Virus record (IMG/VR): IMGVR_UViG_3300018049_000190
Location: 1-20,138 of that record
Strand: one strand, 5' to 3'
DNA length: 20,138 nucleotides
Source: a virus
Shown here: positions 11,778-20,138 of the stretch, in pieces
Position numbering within the stretch: position 1 is the stretch's first letter
Layout of the letters: each line of letters starts with the position of its first letter
The notes under the pieces: generated by a model
What the model was told of the DNA's origin: nothing
Databases searched by the model: none
What the model saw: only the letters and a program-made list of their open reading frames with translations
Position numbers and translations under genes: made by a program

Positions 11778-12122
11778 TTATTCTTGCATTGCTTCTATAT
11801 CAAAGTCTACACTTGTACCACAACCGCATGAAGAAGTTGCATTAGGGTTAGAAATTTTAAACATTTGACCAAAGATTTCAGTTTCGTAATCTATTTCAGT
11901 ACCAACTAAAAACATAACACTAGTTGGATCTACAACTAATTTTCCGTTATCTGATTCAATTACTTCACTGCCTACTTCAATCTGATCGTTGTTAATTACA
12001 TCCCATTTATATTCAAACCCTGCACACCCGCCTCCTTTAATGCTTAAACTAACTGACTTATTATTTGCACTTAATTCGTCAATTTTTTTCTTTGCATTAC
12101 TTGTTAAAGACAGAATTGTCAT
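11778..12122 (-). CDS. A-type iron-sulfur cluster carrier (HesB/IscA/ErpA family)
   Basis: A 114-residue protein, the normal length for A-type carriers, which receive Fe-S clusters from scaffold proteins and pass them to apo-enzymes. All three conserved cysteines are present: C33 in GGGCAGFEY, and C99 and C101 in SSCGCGTS near the C-terminus. The family's hydrophobic core pattern (LVVDPTSVMFLVGTEIDY) lies between them. It could be called ErpA- or IscA-like; the sequence does not decide which. It sits in the late structural block, 12 nt upstream of the giant fibre gene, and overlaps the end of the preceding coiled-coil gene by 26 nt. An AATAAATA motif and AAGGA lie upstream. Related carriers are known in marine T4-like phages, where they may maintain host Fe-S enzymes or serve a virion protein; which applies here is unknown. 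Confidence 0.93.
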   Translation of the reverse strand: MTILSLTSNAKKKIDELSANNKSVSLSIKGGGCAGFEYKWDVINNDQIEVGSEVIESDNGKLVVDPTSVMFLVGTEIDYETEIFGQMFKISNPNATSSCGCGTSVDFDIEAMQE

Positions 12123-12461: not shown

Positions 12462-13001
12462 ATGATAAGATTTATAACAGCAATATTAATTGCTATCTGT
12501 ATACCGTTATCTTCATTTGCACGGGATAGAGATGTAGAATTAGCAGAAATGCAAAAGCATATAGACTGGCTTGCAGAAGTCTATCATTTACCTCACAATG
12601 GCCAATCCCTTCCACTAGTAGTCTATCTGTCGCAAGAACAAATGAATATTTTCTTTTATGGCGAAGAAAAGTATATAGAAGATAAAAAGAACGATAATGT
12701 AACTCAGGTAGAGGCTGTGTTTCAACCTACTCCCGGAAGTGGTGTAATATACTTACAAGATGATTTTGATTGGAACAGTATAGAGGATGCAGACACAGTA
12801 ATACACGAACTAGTTCATTATCTGCAACACATAAACAAAACCAAATATTCTTGCAATCTTTTAAAAGAATTAGACGCTTACAAATACCAAAGTCTGTGGA
12901 TGTTAGAAAATCCTTCGACTAGGCAAGCACCTACATTTTTAACTGCAATTGCTATACTAGAAACATGCGCTCAATCTTGGGAACCCCCTACAGAAGATTG
13001 A
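12462..13001 (+). CDS. Secreted zinc metallopeptidase-like protein (HExxH)
   Basis: A 179-residue protein, the only convincing plus-strand gene. Residues 1-20 are a signal peptide: basic start (MIR), hydrophobic core (FITAILIAICIPL) and an SSFA cleavage site before RDRD. HELVHYLQH at 115-123 contains the zinc-binding and catalytic HExxH (H115, E116, H119). E136 in KELDAY, on a following helix, is a candidate third ligand, as in gluzincins. Three cysteines (C131, C169 and one in the signal core) would allow one disulfide in the exported protein. It may act in the periplasm or cell envelope, for instance in lysis, superinfection exclusion or processing; no substrate is evident. No ordinary Shine-Dalgarno precedes the ATG, and a TAAATA box ends only a few nt upstream. 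It converges with uvdE, overlapping by 14 nt. Confidence 0.82.
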   Translation: MIRFITAILIAICIPLSSFARDRDVELAEMQKHIDWLAEVYHLPHNGQSLPLVVYLSQEQMNIFFYGEEKYIEDKKNDNVTQVEAVFQPTPGSGVIYLQDDFDWNSIEDADTVIHELVHYLQHINKTKYSCNLLKELDAYKYQSLWMLENPSTRQAPTFLTAIAILETCAQSWEPPTED

Positions 13002-14013
13002 TCAAGTCTTCGACAGCAAGGTTCTTCATTTTGCTTTCGCACATGATGTCTGCATATTCTAAGAAGGTTAAAGCCCACTGATTGCATGCTACATTTTTGT
13101 AATAATCACTATGAGCACGGAGCTTTTGTTTTTTGTAGCCTTGCTCCATAAGCAGTTGTAGATCAGGCAGTGTGTTTGTATCAACAGACTCGATGTATTC
13201 TTCACGGCTTACGCTGTAGTGAATAGCAGGACGTTGACCACGCCAACTATCAAACACACGTTTTACACGATCATCGTCGACCTGAATGTATTCACCACCG
13301 CTACGAATGTAGTGGTGATGAATGTCGAGTACAAGAGCTACATGTTTTTCAAGTTCAAGTGATGCATCGAGACCCCATGAGTTCTCGTCGTTCTCGATAG
13401 TAATACAGTTGCGAGCTTCGGGCGACATGCGTGGTAAGGCTTTAATGATACCTTCAGGACCTTGTCGACCGGAAATGTGTACGTTACACTTGAAGTCTTG
13501 CCACTGTGTGCCATATCCCATCCAACGTGCCATGTTGATGTGATATTCAAACTCGTCAATACTGCGATCAACAATGTCGGGATTGTCACTAGCAAGCACG
13601 GTAAACTGACCGGGATGCATAGATAAACGCACATCAAGCTCGCGAGCAAGTTCGCCCACCTTAGCAAACTCACGCTCGCAATAAGCAATCACGTCAGGCT
13701 TTTGCCAGTAGTAACGCCAATCTTCTTGAGTGTACACAGGTAAACAATCACTGCCTAGTCGAATCATGCGATACACAGGAGCACGATTGCCCACATACCA
13801 AATTAGGTTGTAGTAAGATTTGATGTTGTGGACCATAATGTCCCAAAGGCGTTCTTCGGCAACTTCACGAGTTTGCCTGTTGAGCCAGGCAACAGTTGTG
13901 GACCTAGTATTGAAAGGACGTTGAATTTCTTCAAGCTCTTTCTTTTTAAGCGATTGATCAGAGTGCATGTACTTACATGCGAAACCGATACGTTGTGTGT
14001 TATTGTCAAACAT
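12988..14013 (-). CDS. uvsE: UV damage endonuclease UvdE
   Basis: A 341-residue UVDE-family nuclease, which nicks DNA 5' of UV photoproducts and some other lesions to start an alternative excision repair. Its TIM-barrel metal-site motifs occur in family order: RLSMHPGQ (129-136), NVHISG (177-182), ITIENDE (204-210), LDIHHHY (229-235), IHYSVSR (264-270) and RAHSDYY (299-305). The length is normal for the family. The start overlaps the end of the upstream 90-residue gene by 8 nt and lacks a strong ribosome binding site, so translation is probably coupled. Base use differs from the structural genes: 13381-13440 has 32 G+C of 60, against 17 of 60 at 2041-2100. This suggests separate acquisition or different codon selection. 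A sunlight-exposed phage would benefit from repairing its DNA. Confidence 0.93.
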   Translation of the reverse strand: MFDNNTQRIGFACKYMHSDQSLKKKELEEIQRPFNTRSTTVAWLNRQTREVAEERLWDIMVHNIKSYYNLIWYVGNRAPVYRMIRLGSDCLPVYTQEDWRYYWQKPDVIAYCEREFAKVGELARELDVRLSMHPGQFTVLASDNPDIVDRSIDEFEYHINMARWMGYGTQWQDFKCNVHISGRQGPEGIIKALPRMSPEARNCITIENDENSWGLDASLELEKHVALVLDIHHHYIRSGGEYIQVDDDRVKRVFDSWRGQRPAIHYSVSREEYIESVDTNTLPDLQLLMEQGYKKQKLRAHSDYYKNVACNQWALTFLEYADIMCESKMKNLAVEDLINLL

Positions 14014-15122: not shown

Positions 15123-15151
15123 AATATACTACAATTATCGCCAGTTGTCAA
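15123..15151 (-). promoter_or_regulatory. sigma70-type promoter for the YodL-like to uvdE cassette
   Basis: TTGACA (15151-15146), 17-nt spacer, TATATT (15128-15123). The -35 is perfect and the -10 is 5 of 6. It overlaps the end of the glycosyltransferase gene and lies about 38 nt before the ATG at 15085. It is likely read by host RNA polymerase early in infection. Confidence 0.75.
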
Positions 15152-15953
15152 CCACCCAGGGGTCTTTACAGTTTGAGGGATTTGGATCACCGTGGAACAC
15201 TGCTATACAACAGTCTGCTGGCGGTACGACATTTTCAATAACCTTTAAAGTTCTATATCCAGGACTTTTGATAGGAGTTGCCCACTCTTTACTCGATCTC
15301 ACTTCCCATTTCCAACTACGTATCCATTGATCAGGAAAAAACTCTGCTTTTTTATTTCGCATAGCCCAATCCCATATATAATCTTGGTCTCCTCTAAATC
15401 TTTTTTGTATATCTCGTTGATTATCTGTAAAATCTAACCATAATTGATTTAGTTCTCCACTTGTAAACCTAATAACACTACTATTATACTTTTTCCATTC
15501 AGTGCGTTGTGAACGTAAAAAATCTCTAATTATACACCAGTTATCTGCTTTATACGTGAATAATTTATCTATGCTAGCACCAACTACAACATCTAAGTCC
15601 ATATATAAAATTTGTCCAACAAGCTCTAACTCATTAGAAAACATGTAGGGCTTTGCCCACCAACCTTGAATACCGGGAGGTAGTTCAACAGTTGTTATAT
15701 TAGGATTTAGATTTGTCGGATCGTCAGTCAAGCATACAAAAGTAAAATCATATGTGCAGTGCCTTTTACACATATTGTAAAGAGTGTTTACATACTGTGC
15801 AGGATATTTAGATCCATGTTTCACACAGACAATATTATATCCTGCAGAAGCAATCTTAGACTGCTTCCTTTGCCTCTTGAGTTTTTTGTATTCTTCCTTC
15901 GTATATTTAGACTTATCTAGTTTCTGCAATTTTATCTGCCAGCCCAAATTCAA
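15135..15953 (-). CDS. Glycosyltransferase-like protein (DxD motif)
   Basis: About 272 residues. After a Lys-rich N-terminal stretch (roughly 1-34), the fold starts with a strand-helix unit ([12 protein letters not shown], 39-50), followed by FVCLTDDP (72-79), a WWAKPYMF element (98-105) and the nucleotide-sugar/metal motif LYMDLDVVV with D119-x-D121. [10 protein letters not shown] segment (188-196) and HGDPNPSN (254-261) match the acceptor and C-terminal metal-site positions of GT-A enzymes such as GT8-like families. It would transfer a sugar to an acceptor that cannot be named; phage enzymes of this kind modify DNA, virion or host surface. The start is uncertain: no ATG or GTG precedes the domain, and the frame begins at a TTG (15953) overlapping clpP by 41 nt, with only a weak AAGAAG upstream. 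Confidence 0.8.
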
Positions 15954-16497
15954 CAGCTTCTTGTGCAGTCATAAAGTTATCTCTATCCATTGCACGCTCA
16001 AACTCATCATAAGTTTTACCTGCTGTATTATGCTTTACATAAAGTTCTGTAAGCATTTTTTTCATATAGGTAATTTCTTGATATTGAATTTCAATATCAC
16101 TTTGCATACCTCTAGCGCCGCCACTAGGCTGATGAATCATTGTTCGACTATGCGGAAGTACAAATCGTTTACCAGGTGCACCTGCTTGAGCAAGAAAACT
16201 GCCCATTGAACAAGCTTGTCCGATCACAATAGTAGATACATCAGGTTTAATAAATTGCATAGTATCATAGATGCTCATTCCGCTTGTAATGACACCACCT
16301 GGACTATTAATATATAAATTAATGTCACGTTCAGAATCTTCGCTTTCTAAAAATAACATTTGCGACACAATAAGATTTGCTGTTGTGTCTTCAACAGGGC
16401 CATTGAGCATGATAATTCTATCTTTTAGCAATCGACTGTAAATGTCGTATGCACGTTCGCCGCGACTAGATTGCTCAACTACCATTGGTACTAACAT
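15913..16497 (-). CDS. clpP: ATP-dependent Clp protease proteolytic subunit ClpP
   Basis: A 194-residue serine peptidase of the S14 family that forms the degradation chamber used by ClpX or ClpA. The triad is visible: S97 in [12 protein letters not shown]122 in [10 protein letters not shown], and D173 in [18 protein letters not shown] (60-68) and [11 protein letters not shown] are the usual surrounding motifs. Two extra residues lie between His and Asp compared with textbook ClpP. There is no propeptide beyond a few residues. A sigma70-like promoter and AGGA precede the start. No ClpX or ClpA is visible here, so it probably works with host ATPases, or replaces or mixes with host ClpP. ClpP is known from several marine phages; its job there is unclear. 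Confidence 0.95.
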
Positions 16498-16563: not shown

Positions 16564-17862
16564 TTAACTTATAGCGCCAAACGTCTTCCATTCTCCCGGA
16601 GTGCCTGATCTAATACAAATCCAACCTACATATCCTTTAGACTGCGGAGAACTATTCCAAACAATATCTCCTTGGCTGTATGCTCCTGTATTAGGAATGG
16701 TATCGCCTACTTCAAACTTTTTACCGTTTTGAGCAATCGTGCCATTTACATTAAGCTTTACTGATTCGTCATTTGTTGCACTGTTGATAGAAACAGTTTC
16801 AAAACGTGCAGGCGAGTGTACATGTATGTGTCCTGTTTTGCCCACAGTTATTCTTTTAGCACCGTCTGTAATAATTTGCATACCAGTACTACTGTATGTG
16901 CCCATCTGCCAGTAAAGGTTTTCCATATCGTTAATAACTACAAACTCATGGTCAAACGATCGTATGCTTAATTCTCCATTAGGTTCGTCTGTGCCTATGC
17001 CTAATCTATTAGTATTGTGATCGTAAAAAATAAATTCGTCAATGCTCATAGATCCTGTTGTTCTTAGATTTTTAAGAACACCAACAGTTTTCAAGTTACT
17101 GTCAACAACACCCGTGCCTAGGCTAGTAGCTGATAAAACTGTTTGGTTTGCAATTTTGTAATCATTACCTTTGAAAAGATCTAAAGACTCACTGCTAAAC
17201 AGCCTATCTGGATTTGGCAAAAACACAAATTGTTTTGTGTGTCCGTTACCTTTCCATAATAATCCTTTGTTGGAAATAGAACCATTTTCGTCTGCTTCAA
17301 AATACAAAGGACTTGTTCTTTGAAGTCTTACGTCACTTGTAACTTCATCCACTTTAATGCTTTGTGCTTTTAAGACGCCTGTGGTTGTAAGATTTCCTTC
17401 TACAGTAACATCGCCTAGTAATTTATTAGTTCTAATGTTACTTACTACCACAGCATCGTTGGTTACACGTAAAACTTTGTCAGTAGCTTCGTCTAGTATA
17501 CCTCGGCTAGAAAAGTTTGTAATCATTCCGCCGTTTATCTTGTTACCAGAAATTTCTCTATCTAAAAATTCAGGCTTTTTCATTTTTGCTACTTGCTGAT
17601 TCAAAGTAGCATATTTGTTATCAATTACTTTTACTTTTTCTTCTATTGAAGCAGCTAGGTTACTTTCTAATACCCGAGCTTTGTCATTTACTAATTTGTC
17701 TGCATGTTTATTTACAGATTTAGAAACTTCAGCAGTAATTGCAACACGATCTTGTGAAGAGTCACCCGGAAGCGACTCTTGAACAAGCGTTGATAAGGCA
17801 GTTAAGCCCTCGTTAAGTTTAGATAATTGTTTTGCATGGTTTGACATGCATATATTTATCAA
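16564..17862 (-). CDS. Tail-fibre-like structural protein with coiled-coil N-terminus
   Basis: About 432 residues. The N-terminal ~95 residues are helical, with heptads (KVKVIDNKYATLNQQVAKMK). The middle has fibre repeats (GNLTTTGVLKAQSIKV near 155; RLGIGTDEPNGELSI near 287-301), and the C-terminus (from about 390: TGAYSQGDIVWN, then GYVGWICIRSGTPGEW) is a terminal domain I recognise from marine phage structural proteins. It is probably a trimeric fibre or whisker-like virion protein. Start choice: a TTG at 17862 overlaps the TGA of the 425-residue gene (TTGA) and has AAAGG 4 nt upstream; an ATG five codons later (17847) lacks a ribosome binding site but follows a GATAAATA late-promoter-like box by 5 nt. 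Either may be used, perhaps on different transcripts. Confidence 0.82.
   Translation of the reverse strand: MINICMSNHAKQLSKLNEGLTALSTLVQESLPGDSSQDRVAITAEVSKSVNKHADKLVNDKARVLESNLAASIEEKVKVIDNKYATLNQQVAKMKKPEFLDREISGNKINGGMITNFSSRGILDEATDKVLRVTNDAVVVSNIRTNKLLGDVTVEGNLTTTGVLKAQSIKVDEVTSDVRLQRTSPLYFEADENGSISNKGLLWKGNGHTKQFVFLPNPDRLFSSESLDLFKGNDYKIANQTVLSATSLGTGVVDSNLKTVGVLKNLRTTGSMSIDEFIFYDHNTNRLGIGTDEPNGELSIRSFDHEFVVINDMENLYWQMGTYSSTGMQIITDGAKRITVGKTGHIHVHSPARFETVSINSATNDESVKLNVNGTIAQNGKKFEVGDTIPNTGAYSQGDIVWNSSPQSKGYVGWICIRSGTPGEWKTFGAIS
17853..17860 (-). promoter_or_regulatory. T4-like late promoter motif GATAAATA
   Basis: GATAAATA (7 of 8 to TATAAATA) at the junction of the 425-residue and 432-residue genes. 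Its end lies 5 nt before the internal ATG at 17847, so a late transcript from it would have almost no leader. Confidence 0.4.
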
Positions 17863-19136
17863 CTAACCTTTAGTAAGACCGTATGTTCGTTTGTTCTGCC
17901 GTTTAATTTAGTTTCAGTAGTTGCAATGCTGTCAAGATATTTTCGCAGCTTTACCTTGCCTGCTGCTTTAAATTCTTTTAGTTGCTCTTCTGGCTTACGC
18001 AAAGTTTTTTGCAGACTTAAATTTTCATCGTAGCCAATAATTGTTGTGCCTTTTACACTCAAGCCACTACCGTCACGACCTTGACCAGTTGGATCAATTT
18101 TAGCTGCCACGTACTTGCCAATTTTTCGTGTCTTTGTATTAAACACCCAAAGCTCGCTTGCTCCTACAATAGTGCTTGGAGTAACACTTGAGATTTTATA
18201 CTTGTCATCGATTGTACAAAACTTCAACTTTTGAACAACTTTATCGACACTCTTAGGACGTGGGGTGCGTTTCTTACGTGTAGCTTTGCTGGCGTCTATA
18301 ACGTGCGCACAAGCGTCTACAATAGCTTCTAGTGCATCTAGATATTTTGCTACATCTGCTTTTTTTAGATGCTTGTACCCCTCTTTGATTTGTTCGTAGT
18401 TGTCTCTATCAGCATCGCTCATTTTTTTAAGTTTAGCCGGAGTGGGAATATTTTGTATTAGAACAAATTCATCTTTAAGTGGTTTGTAAAAAGCTAGAAT
18501 CTTACGTGCATGGGCCTGTGTCACTGCTTTGTCTTTAAAGTGCTGAACAACATTAAAAGCCTTAGCATCAAACTTTTTTGGTTGTGTAAGAAAGCCATCT
18601 AACCAGCTGTCTATATCTTCGATTGCTGCTAATGATTGCTGACGAATCCGCTGCTGAATAGTCAGCTTAGGCTGCCCTTCGCGAATTTCTTTTTCTTTAT
18701 CTTCTGCTTGCTTTACGTCTTTTGCTTGCTTACCGCGAACAATGATTTGTTTAACTTCATCATGAATAAAAATATCTACAGGCTCTAATTCGCCCATAGT
18801 ACCAGGCAAGCTAATCCAGTACTCGTTCTCTGCAGGCGAAAACGCAGGCATGCCTTTCAGCAGCATATTTGCATAGATAGCAGGCGCAGTTTCAATGTAA
18901 GGTGCTGCTTTTGCAGCAGCTACATCATCTTTGTCGTAACCATTTTGGTTCATCCAAGTAAACAGTGCTGGCAACAAATCTGCCGTCTTAAAGTTTTCAT
19001 AGTAGAACTTGAAAGCTTCTTTAGCAAAAACATGATATGATTTTCCGTCCCACGATTCCCAATTGTCCCACTCTGGTGCTTTGAGTTTGTGCCCTCTTTT
19101 CACAGTTACAGTTTTTGCTTTTTTACGTGCAGCCAT
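17859..19136 (-). CDS. Lys-rich protein of unknown function
   Basis: A 425-residue basic, Lys-rich soluble protein. The N-terminus (MAARKKAKTVTVKRGHKLKA) is strongly positive. A helical middle follows (roughly 140-290, with QQRIRQQSLAAIEDIDSWL), then another basic patch (KATRKKRTPRPKSVDKVVQK, about 285-304), a beta-rich segment (LWVFNTKTRKIGKYVAA) and a charged C-terminal tail. Similar long uncharacterised proteins occur in marine T4-like phages, but I cannot name a family. The charge suggests binding to nucleic acid. It has its own perfect sigma70 promoter just upstream, so it is probably made early by host polymerase, unlike the fibre gene that overlaps its stop by 4 nt. GAGG lies about 8 nt before the ATG. 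Confidence 0.85.
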   Translation of the reverse strand: MAARKKAKTVTVKRGHKLKAPEWDNWESWDGKSYHVFAKEAFKFYYENFKTADLLPALFTWMNQNGYDKDDVAAAKAAPYIETAPAIYANMLLKGMPAFSPAENEYWISLPGTMGELEPVDIFIHDEVKQIIVRGKQAKDVKQAEDKEKEIREGQPKLTIQQRIRQQSLAAIEDIDSWLDGFLTQPKKFDAKAFNVVQHFKDKAVTQAHARKILAFYKPLKDEFVLIQNIPTPAKLKKMSDADRDNYEQIKEGYKHLKKADVAKYLDALEAIVDACAHVIDASKATRKKRTPRPKSVDKVVQKLKFCTIDDKYKISSVTPSTIVGASELWVFNTKTRKIGKYVAAKIDPTGQGRDGSGLSVKGTTIIGYDENLSLQKTLRKPEEQLKEFKAAGKVKLRKYLDSIATTETKLNGRTNEHTVLLKVS

Positions 19137-19196: not shown

Positions 19197-19226
19197 AAAA
19201 AAAGGAGGCAATCTCTTACCTCCTTT
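19197..19226 (-). terminator. Rho-independent terminator after tmRNA
   Basis: On the minus strand AAAGGAGG (19226-19219) pairs with CCTCCTTT (19208-19201) around a 10-nt loop, followed directly by four more T (19200-19197). It ends the tmRNA precursor and insulates the next promoter. Confidence 0.85.
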
Positions 19227-19307
19227 ATAAAACATCTAGTGTTTTTAAAGCTGAGACTGGGTAGTTAACCCTTCTGTTTCTAGGCCGACTCAGATGCCCA
19301 ACTCAGA

Positions 19308-19352
19308 TCACGCTGCAAGAGCGTAACGAGAAGGAGCTACATAATTGTTTGC
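19308..19352 (-). other. tmRNA tag-peptide reading frame (ANNYVAPSRYALAA)
   Basis: Fourteen sense codons from GCA to GCG and then TGA, within the coding half of the permuted tmRNA. The tag begins with Ala-Asn and ends in ALAA, as bacterial tmRNA tags do; the C-terminal LAA class is the one recognised by ClpX. The resume codon is inferred from the frame and from the usual Ala-Asn start. Confidence 0.88.
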
Positions 19353-19433
19353 TCTTAGTTTAATTTGATACTTACGGTATCAATCGGTTTGTCTCCACTT
19401 GCTTTCCGCACCAGTCGATCCTAATTCACCCCC

Positions 19434-19582
19434 CTCATAAACACACGAATTAGCAATGGGCCAAAGCGATAACTTTTATAGGGGTCACCACTGTTATATC
19501 TAAAGTCTCCCCATATAAAGGGGGTTCCTTTAAACGAACCAATCCAGTGCCAATCCCAAGTCATTCTACCCTCATGTGTTTA
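19434..19582 (-). other. tmRNA intervening segment with closing stem
   Basis: The 149 nt between the acceptor-half CCA and the coding-half 5' end would be cut out during maturation. Its ends are complementary: TAAACACA (19582-19575) pairs with TGTGTTTA (19445-19438), extendable to 12 pairs with two G-U, stacking next to the acceptor stem. Inside are GGTTC/GAACC (19540-19536 with 19527-19523) and CCCC/GGGG (19523-19520 with 19512-19509) hairpin halves. It holds no gene. Confidence 0.75.
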
Positions 19583-19650
19583 TGGTGGAGGTGAGGGGAT
19601 TTGCACCCCTGTCCTGTATACGTTCCGCTCGCTTCATCAACGAACAATTA

Positions 19651-19680
19651 TATTTATAACATGTTACACAAAGTTGTCAA
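19651..19680 (-). promoter_or_regulatory. tmRNA promoter: sigma70 -35 with TATAAATA box
   Basis: TTGACA (19680-19675), 16-nt spacer, TATAAA (19658-19653), which extends to an exact T4 late consensus TATAAATA (19658-19651). It overlaps the 3' end of the SWIM gene. The same -35 neighbourhood, GGTTGACAACT, occurs in the promoter at 15151. Confidence 0.7.
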
Positions 19681-19876
19681 CCACTTTTTTGCTGTGCTTA
19701 CATTTGCCATGAAAGCCGAAGCCTGTGCACTCACAAGTAAAGCCTTTCTCAGTAAGAGTTACAGTGTAGTCAGTACCAGCTTTACTGCCGGGCACTGTCC
19801 ATTCAAAACCCATGTACCAGTTGTCCTTGAACTTAAAGCCTTCGGGTTTGAAGTAGCGTTGTGAATATTTAGGCAT
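19664..19876 (-). CDS. Small SWIM zinc-finger protein
   Basis: A 70-residue protein starting MPKYSQRYFK. Its C-terminal half contains a SWIM-type zinc site, C-x-C-x8-C-x-H (C48, C50, C59, H61, in CECTGFGFHGKCKH), preceded by the usual short beta hairpin (YTVTLTEKGFTC). SWIM fingers bind nucleic acid or protein partners and usually sit inside larger proteins; a stand-alone one is small but plausible for a phage. An ATG two codons earlier is possible (MIM), but the later ATG is better spaced from GAGAG (about 6 nt). Its stop lies 6 nt before the tmRNA -10 box, so the tmRNA promoter is inside it. It follows the RimK-like gene by about 28 nt, suggesting co-transcription. Confidence 0.8.
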   Translation of the reverse strand: MPKYSQRYFKPEGFKFKDNWYMGFEWTVPGSKAGTDYTVTLTEKGFTCECTGFGFHGKCKHSKKVVDNFV

Positions 19877-19904
19877 TATCATCTCTCGCTAATGTACGTA
19901 TATA

Positions 19905-20138
19905 TTAACATTTAGATCGTGCAAAGTCAACTATTTCTTTTGCTACATTGACCCCTGTATATTTTTCAAAGCCTAAAAAACCAGGAGCGGAATTAGCTTC
20001 GCACAATTTATAGTCCTCGCCGTCGAACAGTAAATCTATCCCAGCAATATCTAAACCTAATGCTTTTGCAGTATCCAAAGCTATTTGCTCTATTCGTTCA
20101 TTCATAGGAAAGCTTGATCCTACAGCACCTCTTGTAAT
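19905..20138 (-). CDS. RimK-like ATP-grasp ligase, C-terminal part (runs off window)
   Basis: Seventy-seven C-terminal residues are visible and the frame is open to the right edge (ITRGAVGSSFP before the internal Met at 20105), so the true start is outside. GLDIAGIDLLFDGEDYKLCE then NSAPGFLGFEKYTG is the metal/ATP-site end of the RimK family of ATP-grasp enzymes: the D-x-LF..., the E-x-N-x-xPGF and the final helix (VAKEIVDFARSK). RimK relatives add glutamate or other amino acids to protein or small-molecule acceptors; the phage substrate cannot be inferred. Treating the ATG at 20105 as a start would remove conserved residues. It lies upstream of the SWIM gene on the same strand. Confidence 0.85.
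   Translation of the reverse strand: MTRGAVGSSFPMNERIEQIALDTAKALGLDIAGIDLLFDGEDYKLCEANSAPGFLGFEKYTGVNVAKEIVDFARSKC

Follow-up and report, generated by a model that had tools for sequence, protein, structure and literature searches.

The intervening segment that a permuted tmRNA gene discards is, in a group of phages, the site of a conserved and exchangeable protein gene. In the window, the whole stretch of 20,138 bases analyzed here, a small reading frame designated family A lies between the two halves of a two-piece tmRNA. Computational analysis of this locus and its relatives revealed purifying selection on the encoded protein, an RNA stem closing the segment in which the gene lies, and movement of the gene between phages. 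The nested gene was overlooked by the original prediction for this DNA and is the new part of the present analysis. We consider it probable (about 0.68) that the precursor is bifunctional, with one transcript acting as a messenger before it folds and as a tmRNA afterwards.

The tmRNA gene itself had been proposed as an intact, permuted two-piece tmRNA residing in a phage rather than in a host chromosome, and this was borne out. The DNA is a virus record, and positions 19645-19308 on the minus strand match the Rfam model tmRNA_permuted (RF04321) over its full length (model positions 1-213), with a score of 99.2 bits (curated cutoff, 47; E = 1.3e-18). The covariance search suggested with that proposal also returned the alpha_tmRNA model RF01849 above its cutoff (62.1 bits against 50), with many model pairs broken. 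Independently, ARAGORN called a permuted tmRNA at 19674-19217 with the 14-residue tag ANNYVAPSRYALAA, in agreement with the expected tag frame ending in ALAA. The interval first given, 19227-19650, thus points to the right gene but is slightly short and lacks the strand. Also as proposed, the acceptor half precedes the mRNA-like half, seven pairs, G3-U70 among them, make up the acceptor stem GGGGGTG/CACCTCC, and the T-arm AGGGGTGCAAATCCCCT, ACCA and the 5' block GGATCGAC were all found; the T-loop is uninterrupted. The acceptor half contains the T-arm, the acceptor 3' strand CACCTCC and ACCA (CCA at 19585-19583), while the mRNA-like half holds the acceptor 5' strand GGGGGTG together with GGATCGAC. 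In Table 1, the 5' limit of the acceptor half is the limit of the RF04321 match, and the end of the mRNA-like half is the tag stop, not the mature 3' end. The intervening segment is expected to be absent from the mature two-piece tmRNA.

Table 1. Features of the tmRNA locus and its nested gene, in window coordinates.
Feature	Position	Strand	Basis
Acceptor (3') half	19583..19645	(-)	RF04321 and RF01849 matches, ARAGORN, stem test
Intervening segment, 149 nt	19434..19582	(-)	Between CCA and acceptor 5' strand
mRNA-like half up to tag stop	19308..19433	(-)	Rfam, ARAGORN, stem test
Tag reading frame, ANNYVAPSRYALAA*	19308..19352	(-)	ARAGORN
Intrinsic terminator, 11-pair stem and T run	19201..19226	(-)	Stem-loop found in sequence
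Promoter-like TTGACA-16-TATAAA upstream of acceptor half	19653..19680	(-)	Read by eye
Closing stem 5' strand, CATAAACACATG, 12 bp	19573..19584	(-)	12/12 pairs, compensatory pair types, RNAfold
Closing stem 3' strand, CGTGTGTTTATG	19436..19447	(-)	RNAfold, stem survey; also codons near nested gene's end
Nested gene, family A, 47 codons and TAG, MTWDWHWIGSFKGTPFIWGDFRYNSGDPYKSYRFGPLLIRVFMRGVN	19421..19564	(-)	63 IMG/VR loci, dN/dS
Shine-Dalgarno-like GAGGG of nested gene	19569..19573	(-)	Sequence; base of closing stem

Of the predicted expression signals, the terminator was recovered as a stem-loop (Table 1), and a promoter of the gene's own is plausible. A TTGACA-16-TATAAA site is visible by eye, with its TTGACA at 19680-19675 on the minus strand, but it fails the rule of the promoter scanner. 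A perfect 12/12 sigma-70-type promoter, TTGACA-17-TATAAT (19193-19165, minus strand), lies past the tmRNA terminator and ahead of the next gene, which encodes 425 amino acids (17859-19136), and not ahead of the tmRNA. The putative tmRNA promoter region is overlapped by the end of a gene (19664-19882, minus strand) whose 72-amino-acid product weakly matches a SWIM zinc finger. A search of 16 related contigs yielded no SmpB gene, and the SmpB partner of the phage tmRNA, which may replace or retarget host ribosome rescue as originally proposed, is assumed to be that of the host.

A profile search recovered homologs of the family A protein at 63 IMG/VR loci, the window not counted. Across 64 copies including the window, of which 32 were distinct in the 37 codons aligned, dN/dS was 0.109 in frame, compared with 1.26 and 1.08 for the two alternative frames, and ten divergent representatives gave 0.103. 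With dN/dS low in one frame only, family A encodes a protein that is under purifying selection; these values, together with the frame controls, ruled out a frame arising by chance. In the window, the final 13 nt of the frame, TAG included, overlap the mature mRNA-like half, and relatives carry AGGA/GGAG-type ribosome-binding sites at the place equivalent to its GAGGG. The protein had no match in PHROGs, Pfam, PADLOC or NCBIfam, and only weak matches (E of 0.13 or worse) among PDB sequences. An AlphaFold2 model with three strands reached a pLDDT of 62, too weak for a fold search, and the function is therefore not readable from the fold. Isolate phages gave no meaningful match to family A or to the families B and C described below. 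Weak tblastn matches in Pseudomonas phage TUMS_P81 and Roseobacter phage CRP-2 lie inside larger annotated genes and were rejected, as was the sole GTDB hit for family A, a 9-residue chance match, which left no relative among GTDB genomes.

In most cases, the family A gene sits after the CCA and before the acceptor 5' strand of a tmRNA recognized by RF04321 or ARAGORN, and the tmRNAs concerned differ widely from one another. The nested copies lie on the tmRNA strand, with a start codon about 15-20 nt past the CCA and a ribosome-binding site in between. In most copies, the stop ends at -1 to +13 relative to the mature 5' end; earlier stops occur as exceptions (L155-type, L165, and L210). Since this overlap is not universal, removal of the stop codon by cleavage is not a design common to all copies. 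Furthermore, a minority of copies lie outside tmRNAs, and the family A protein can therefore exist without nesting: the gene has no surrounding tmRNA at L152-L154 and L166, and it is placed just upstream of a tmRNA at L226 and L227. At L168/L169 and L162, it follows a lone acceptor-like half, and at L162 (1029-2047) and L168, a complete tmRNA is found downstream of the half and the nested gene.

The closing stem is formed by the CA of the CCA and the next ten nucleotides, which pair with the twelve nucleotides before the mature 5' end. A stem of this kind is present in most of the phage permuted tmRNAs examined, whether or not they hold a nested gene. Among 66 unique phage stems, a mean of 10.7 of 12 positions paired versus 7.9 for arms swapped between members, where the stem offsets had been picked for maximal pairing, which favors the observed mean. 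Several pair types occur at most positions of these covarying stems. When the window precursor was folded with RNAfold, the acceptor stem ran on into the closing stem and the gene was left in the loop. Families B, C, and D (see below) and the L214 branch of family A have their ribosome-binding site within the stem; that of the window starts at the last base of the stem and is not fully inside. Because ribosome-binding sites and end codons lie in or at the closing stem, translation and the folded precursor should exclude each other.

This anatomy suggests how one transcript could serve both purposes. In the bifunctional reading, the intervening segment of a permuted tmRNA gene would have captured a small protein gene. 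The ribosome-binding site past the CCA would remain open until the second half is made, so that the 47-residue protein could be translated and the two products would be co-expressed. Once the transcript extends into the mRNA-like half, the acceptor stem would form together with the 12-bp closing stem, and the two would tie down the start and the end of the small gene. The folded precursor would then be presented to tRNA-processing enzymes, the segment would be cut out, and the two-piece tmRNA would be left; in the window, the small gene would moreover lose its stop codon through the cut at the mature 5' end. A more elaborate version, which we regard as possible but doubtful, makes the pre-tmRNA a switch. 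Nested translation would keep the halves apart and tmRNA folding would stop translation, such that ribosome scarcity shifts the output from small protein to rescue RNA; with its stop codon in the mature half, the excised segment would be a non-stop message that is itself tagged by the tmRNA.

In other phage tmRNAs, this segment holds at least three more small genes that are unrelated (families B, C, and E). Family B (MKNPLVQEVSKWMIRAYMVWSICADVFLLSGVVYLVFF-like, with one hydrophobic stretch) comprises 27 loci that are mostly nested, with dN/dS of 0.14-0.19. The 34 loci of family C (LQENLAKDLV...VYDI) include nested genes, free-standing genes and genes placed directly upstream of a tmRNA; dN/dS is 0.21 versus 1.0 and 2.3 in the other frames, computed without gap alignment. 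Family E, of 67 codons and 7 loci, is nested in all six loci with a complete ARAGORN call; where dS exceeds zero, its pairwise dN/dS values range over 0.2-0.5. Two pattern scans of IMG/VR yielded at least about 57 and at least 70 permuted tmRNA calls. Genes of these families were nested in at least 2 of the about 57 calls of the first scan, and at least 8 of the 70 calls of the second had a nested gene, with a candidate F (L331/L337) counted; the resulting share of about 8% is a rough floor that depends on the scan patterns used. A candidate D of 41 amino acids, MYYVMNLKTGSIIDTYDSLLEASELVSKHPEWTIMVKYKDR, lies in a tmRNA intervening segment at L168 (350-480). Unusually long tags of 31 residues, for example ANDNVAVDNVVYANFGSQKALVSYENFALAA, were seen in the phage tmRNAs of L235, L243, and L245-L247.

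Sequence comparisons between loci separate the history of the small gene from that of its surroundings. Between the window and L123, the leader (18/18) and the reading frame (124/126) are near identical, against 69% identity in the acceptor half, 70% in the mRNA-like half, and about 52% in the flanks (Fisher P = 1.7e-13). L173, which shares its contig with L125, matches the window at 100% identity in the acceptor half, 90% in the reading frame, and 74% in the mRNA-like half. Mean identities over 33 distinct loci were 0.87 for the reading frame, 0.71 for the acceptor half, and 0.65 for the mRNA-like half, and certain pairs of loci combine 97-98% identity in the frame with 62-69% in both tmRNA halves. 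Some 10-12-kb neighborhoods (e.g., L182 versus L184) have a common segment of only ~140-220 nt by blastn, and most pairs of loci share 0-2 neighboring genes by blastp; a few of the pairs are true relatives (L174/L182, L224/L225, and L184/L164). The T4 capsid gene Gp23 was found in none of ten family A contigs and in some family B and C contigs, and Terminase_6N matched 1 of 10 contigs. The sequence comparisons show computationally that the small gene is exchanged between phages as a cassette, and the route is probably recombination at the conserved tmRNA motifs on either side of it. As for its initial capture, family C at L275/L276 lies between a tmRNA-half relic and the apparent start of another half, and this arrangement and that of L162 look like leftovers of tandem duplication. 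The tmRNA may have been duplicated in tandem around a small gene, with subsequent loss of the outer halves. A similar kind of event was reportedly proposed by Williams in 2002 for the origin of permuted tmRNA.

Exchange on this scale could also mark the nested gene as a selfish mini-element or recombination passenger, for which the segment is a safe harbor and co-expression with the tmRNA is incidental. Such an element would account for a near-identical island in otherwise unrelated phages, for a segment that also accepts unrelated cargo (families B, C, and E), and for free-standing copies with different borders, two of which (5193 and 6001) flank thyX in one operon of L201, the same contig as L166. 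However, neither an integrase nor a nuclease nor a target-site duplication was identified, a protein of 47 residues is too small to be a known mobility enzyme, and such strong purifying selection suggests that the protein is of use to the phage; we hold this explanation to be unlikely. The L201 copies overlap start or stop codons of neighboring genes.

A phage-encoded ClpP (15913-16497, minus strand; PF00574, E = 4.8e-79) is found a few genes from the tmRNA. Since ALAA tags in bacteria direct ClpP-dependent degradation, a link between the phage ClpP and the tmRNA tag is possible. This neighbor would suit a nested protein that is a partner of the phage tmRNA, acting, for instance, on SmpB, on processing or on tag-dependent proteolysis, with nesting keeping the pair together. 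In line with such a role, un-nested family A genes often lie just upstream of a tmRNA (L168, L226, and L227), and so do family C genes (L277/L278, L285, and L293). It is nonetheless improbable, given that the nested proteins are unrelated to one another (A strand-rich, B membrane-like, C charged, and E) and that A, B, and C are also found without an adjoining tmRNA. The window also contains host-like accessory genes on the minus strand, which encode a UvdE-type endonuclease (12988-14013), an Fe-S_biosyn iron-sulfur assembly protein (11778-12122), a glycosyltransferase-like protein (15135-15953), and a RimK-like ATP-grasp fragment (19905-20138).

Finally, although conserved RNA structure is indeed present at both ends of the segment and a chance frame of this length is conceivable at 37.6% GC, an ordinary two-piece tmRNA whose spacer frame reflects RNA structure or chance is very hard to reconcile with selection confined to one frame, with retention of the frame in copies that have no surrounding tmRNA, and with long segments that have no full-length frame (L073, L035, and L053), which also rule out segment length alone as the source of such frames.

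A two-piece phage tmRNA is by itself a new member of a published kind. The original prediction overstated its rarity, as 53 of 133 unique phage tmRNA structures had already been counted as two-piece, 50 of the 53 being marine or aquatic (Buchholz et al. 2022, PMC9004378). The two-piece ssrA genes of Pelagibacter phage Mosig EXVC030M and Methylophilales phage Melnitz, described in the same study (PMC9004378), resemble the window in being permuted, in belonging to marine phages and in having an ALAA-type tag. Mosig, whose SsrA gave the single isolate-phage DNA match to the tmRNA gene of the window (54 nt), also shares the closing stem (CATAAACACATT/AATGTGTTTATG). In contrast to the 149 nt and gene of the window, its intervening segment is 44 nt long without a nested gene, and many phage relatives lacking a reading frame have segments of 24-50 nt. 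Both phages carry a glutamine riboswitch (PMC9004378), whereas the window had no match to one at the Rfam gathering score. Bacterial permuted tmRNAs (RF04321, PMC11915505) have the same gene order, tRNA-like domain and tag frame as the window. Among their unusual intervening sequences, one is reported to contain a tRNA-Ala gene and another a repetitive element (PMC11915505); we found no report in the literature of a protein gene in this segment of a bacterial permuted tmRNA. Some tmRNA genes contain a group I intron, in part with a homing endonuclease gene (PMC11915505), and are like the window in having a protein gene within a tmRNA gene. However, that self-splicing intron interrupts the T-loop, while the gene of the window lies between the two halves, and Rfam gave no group I intron match in the window.

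Collectively, these findings indicate that the spacer which a permuted structural-RNA gene discards can itself accommodate genes. The tmRNA spacer has taken in at least four small phage genes that are unrelated, one of them swapped among unrelated phages like a cartridge, and small phage proteins may be hidden by tmRNA annotation. If the precursor is indeed both messenger and tmRNA, it would offer a simple system in which to test how translation and RNA folding compete, and it would hint at the way in which phages manage ribosome rescue.
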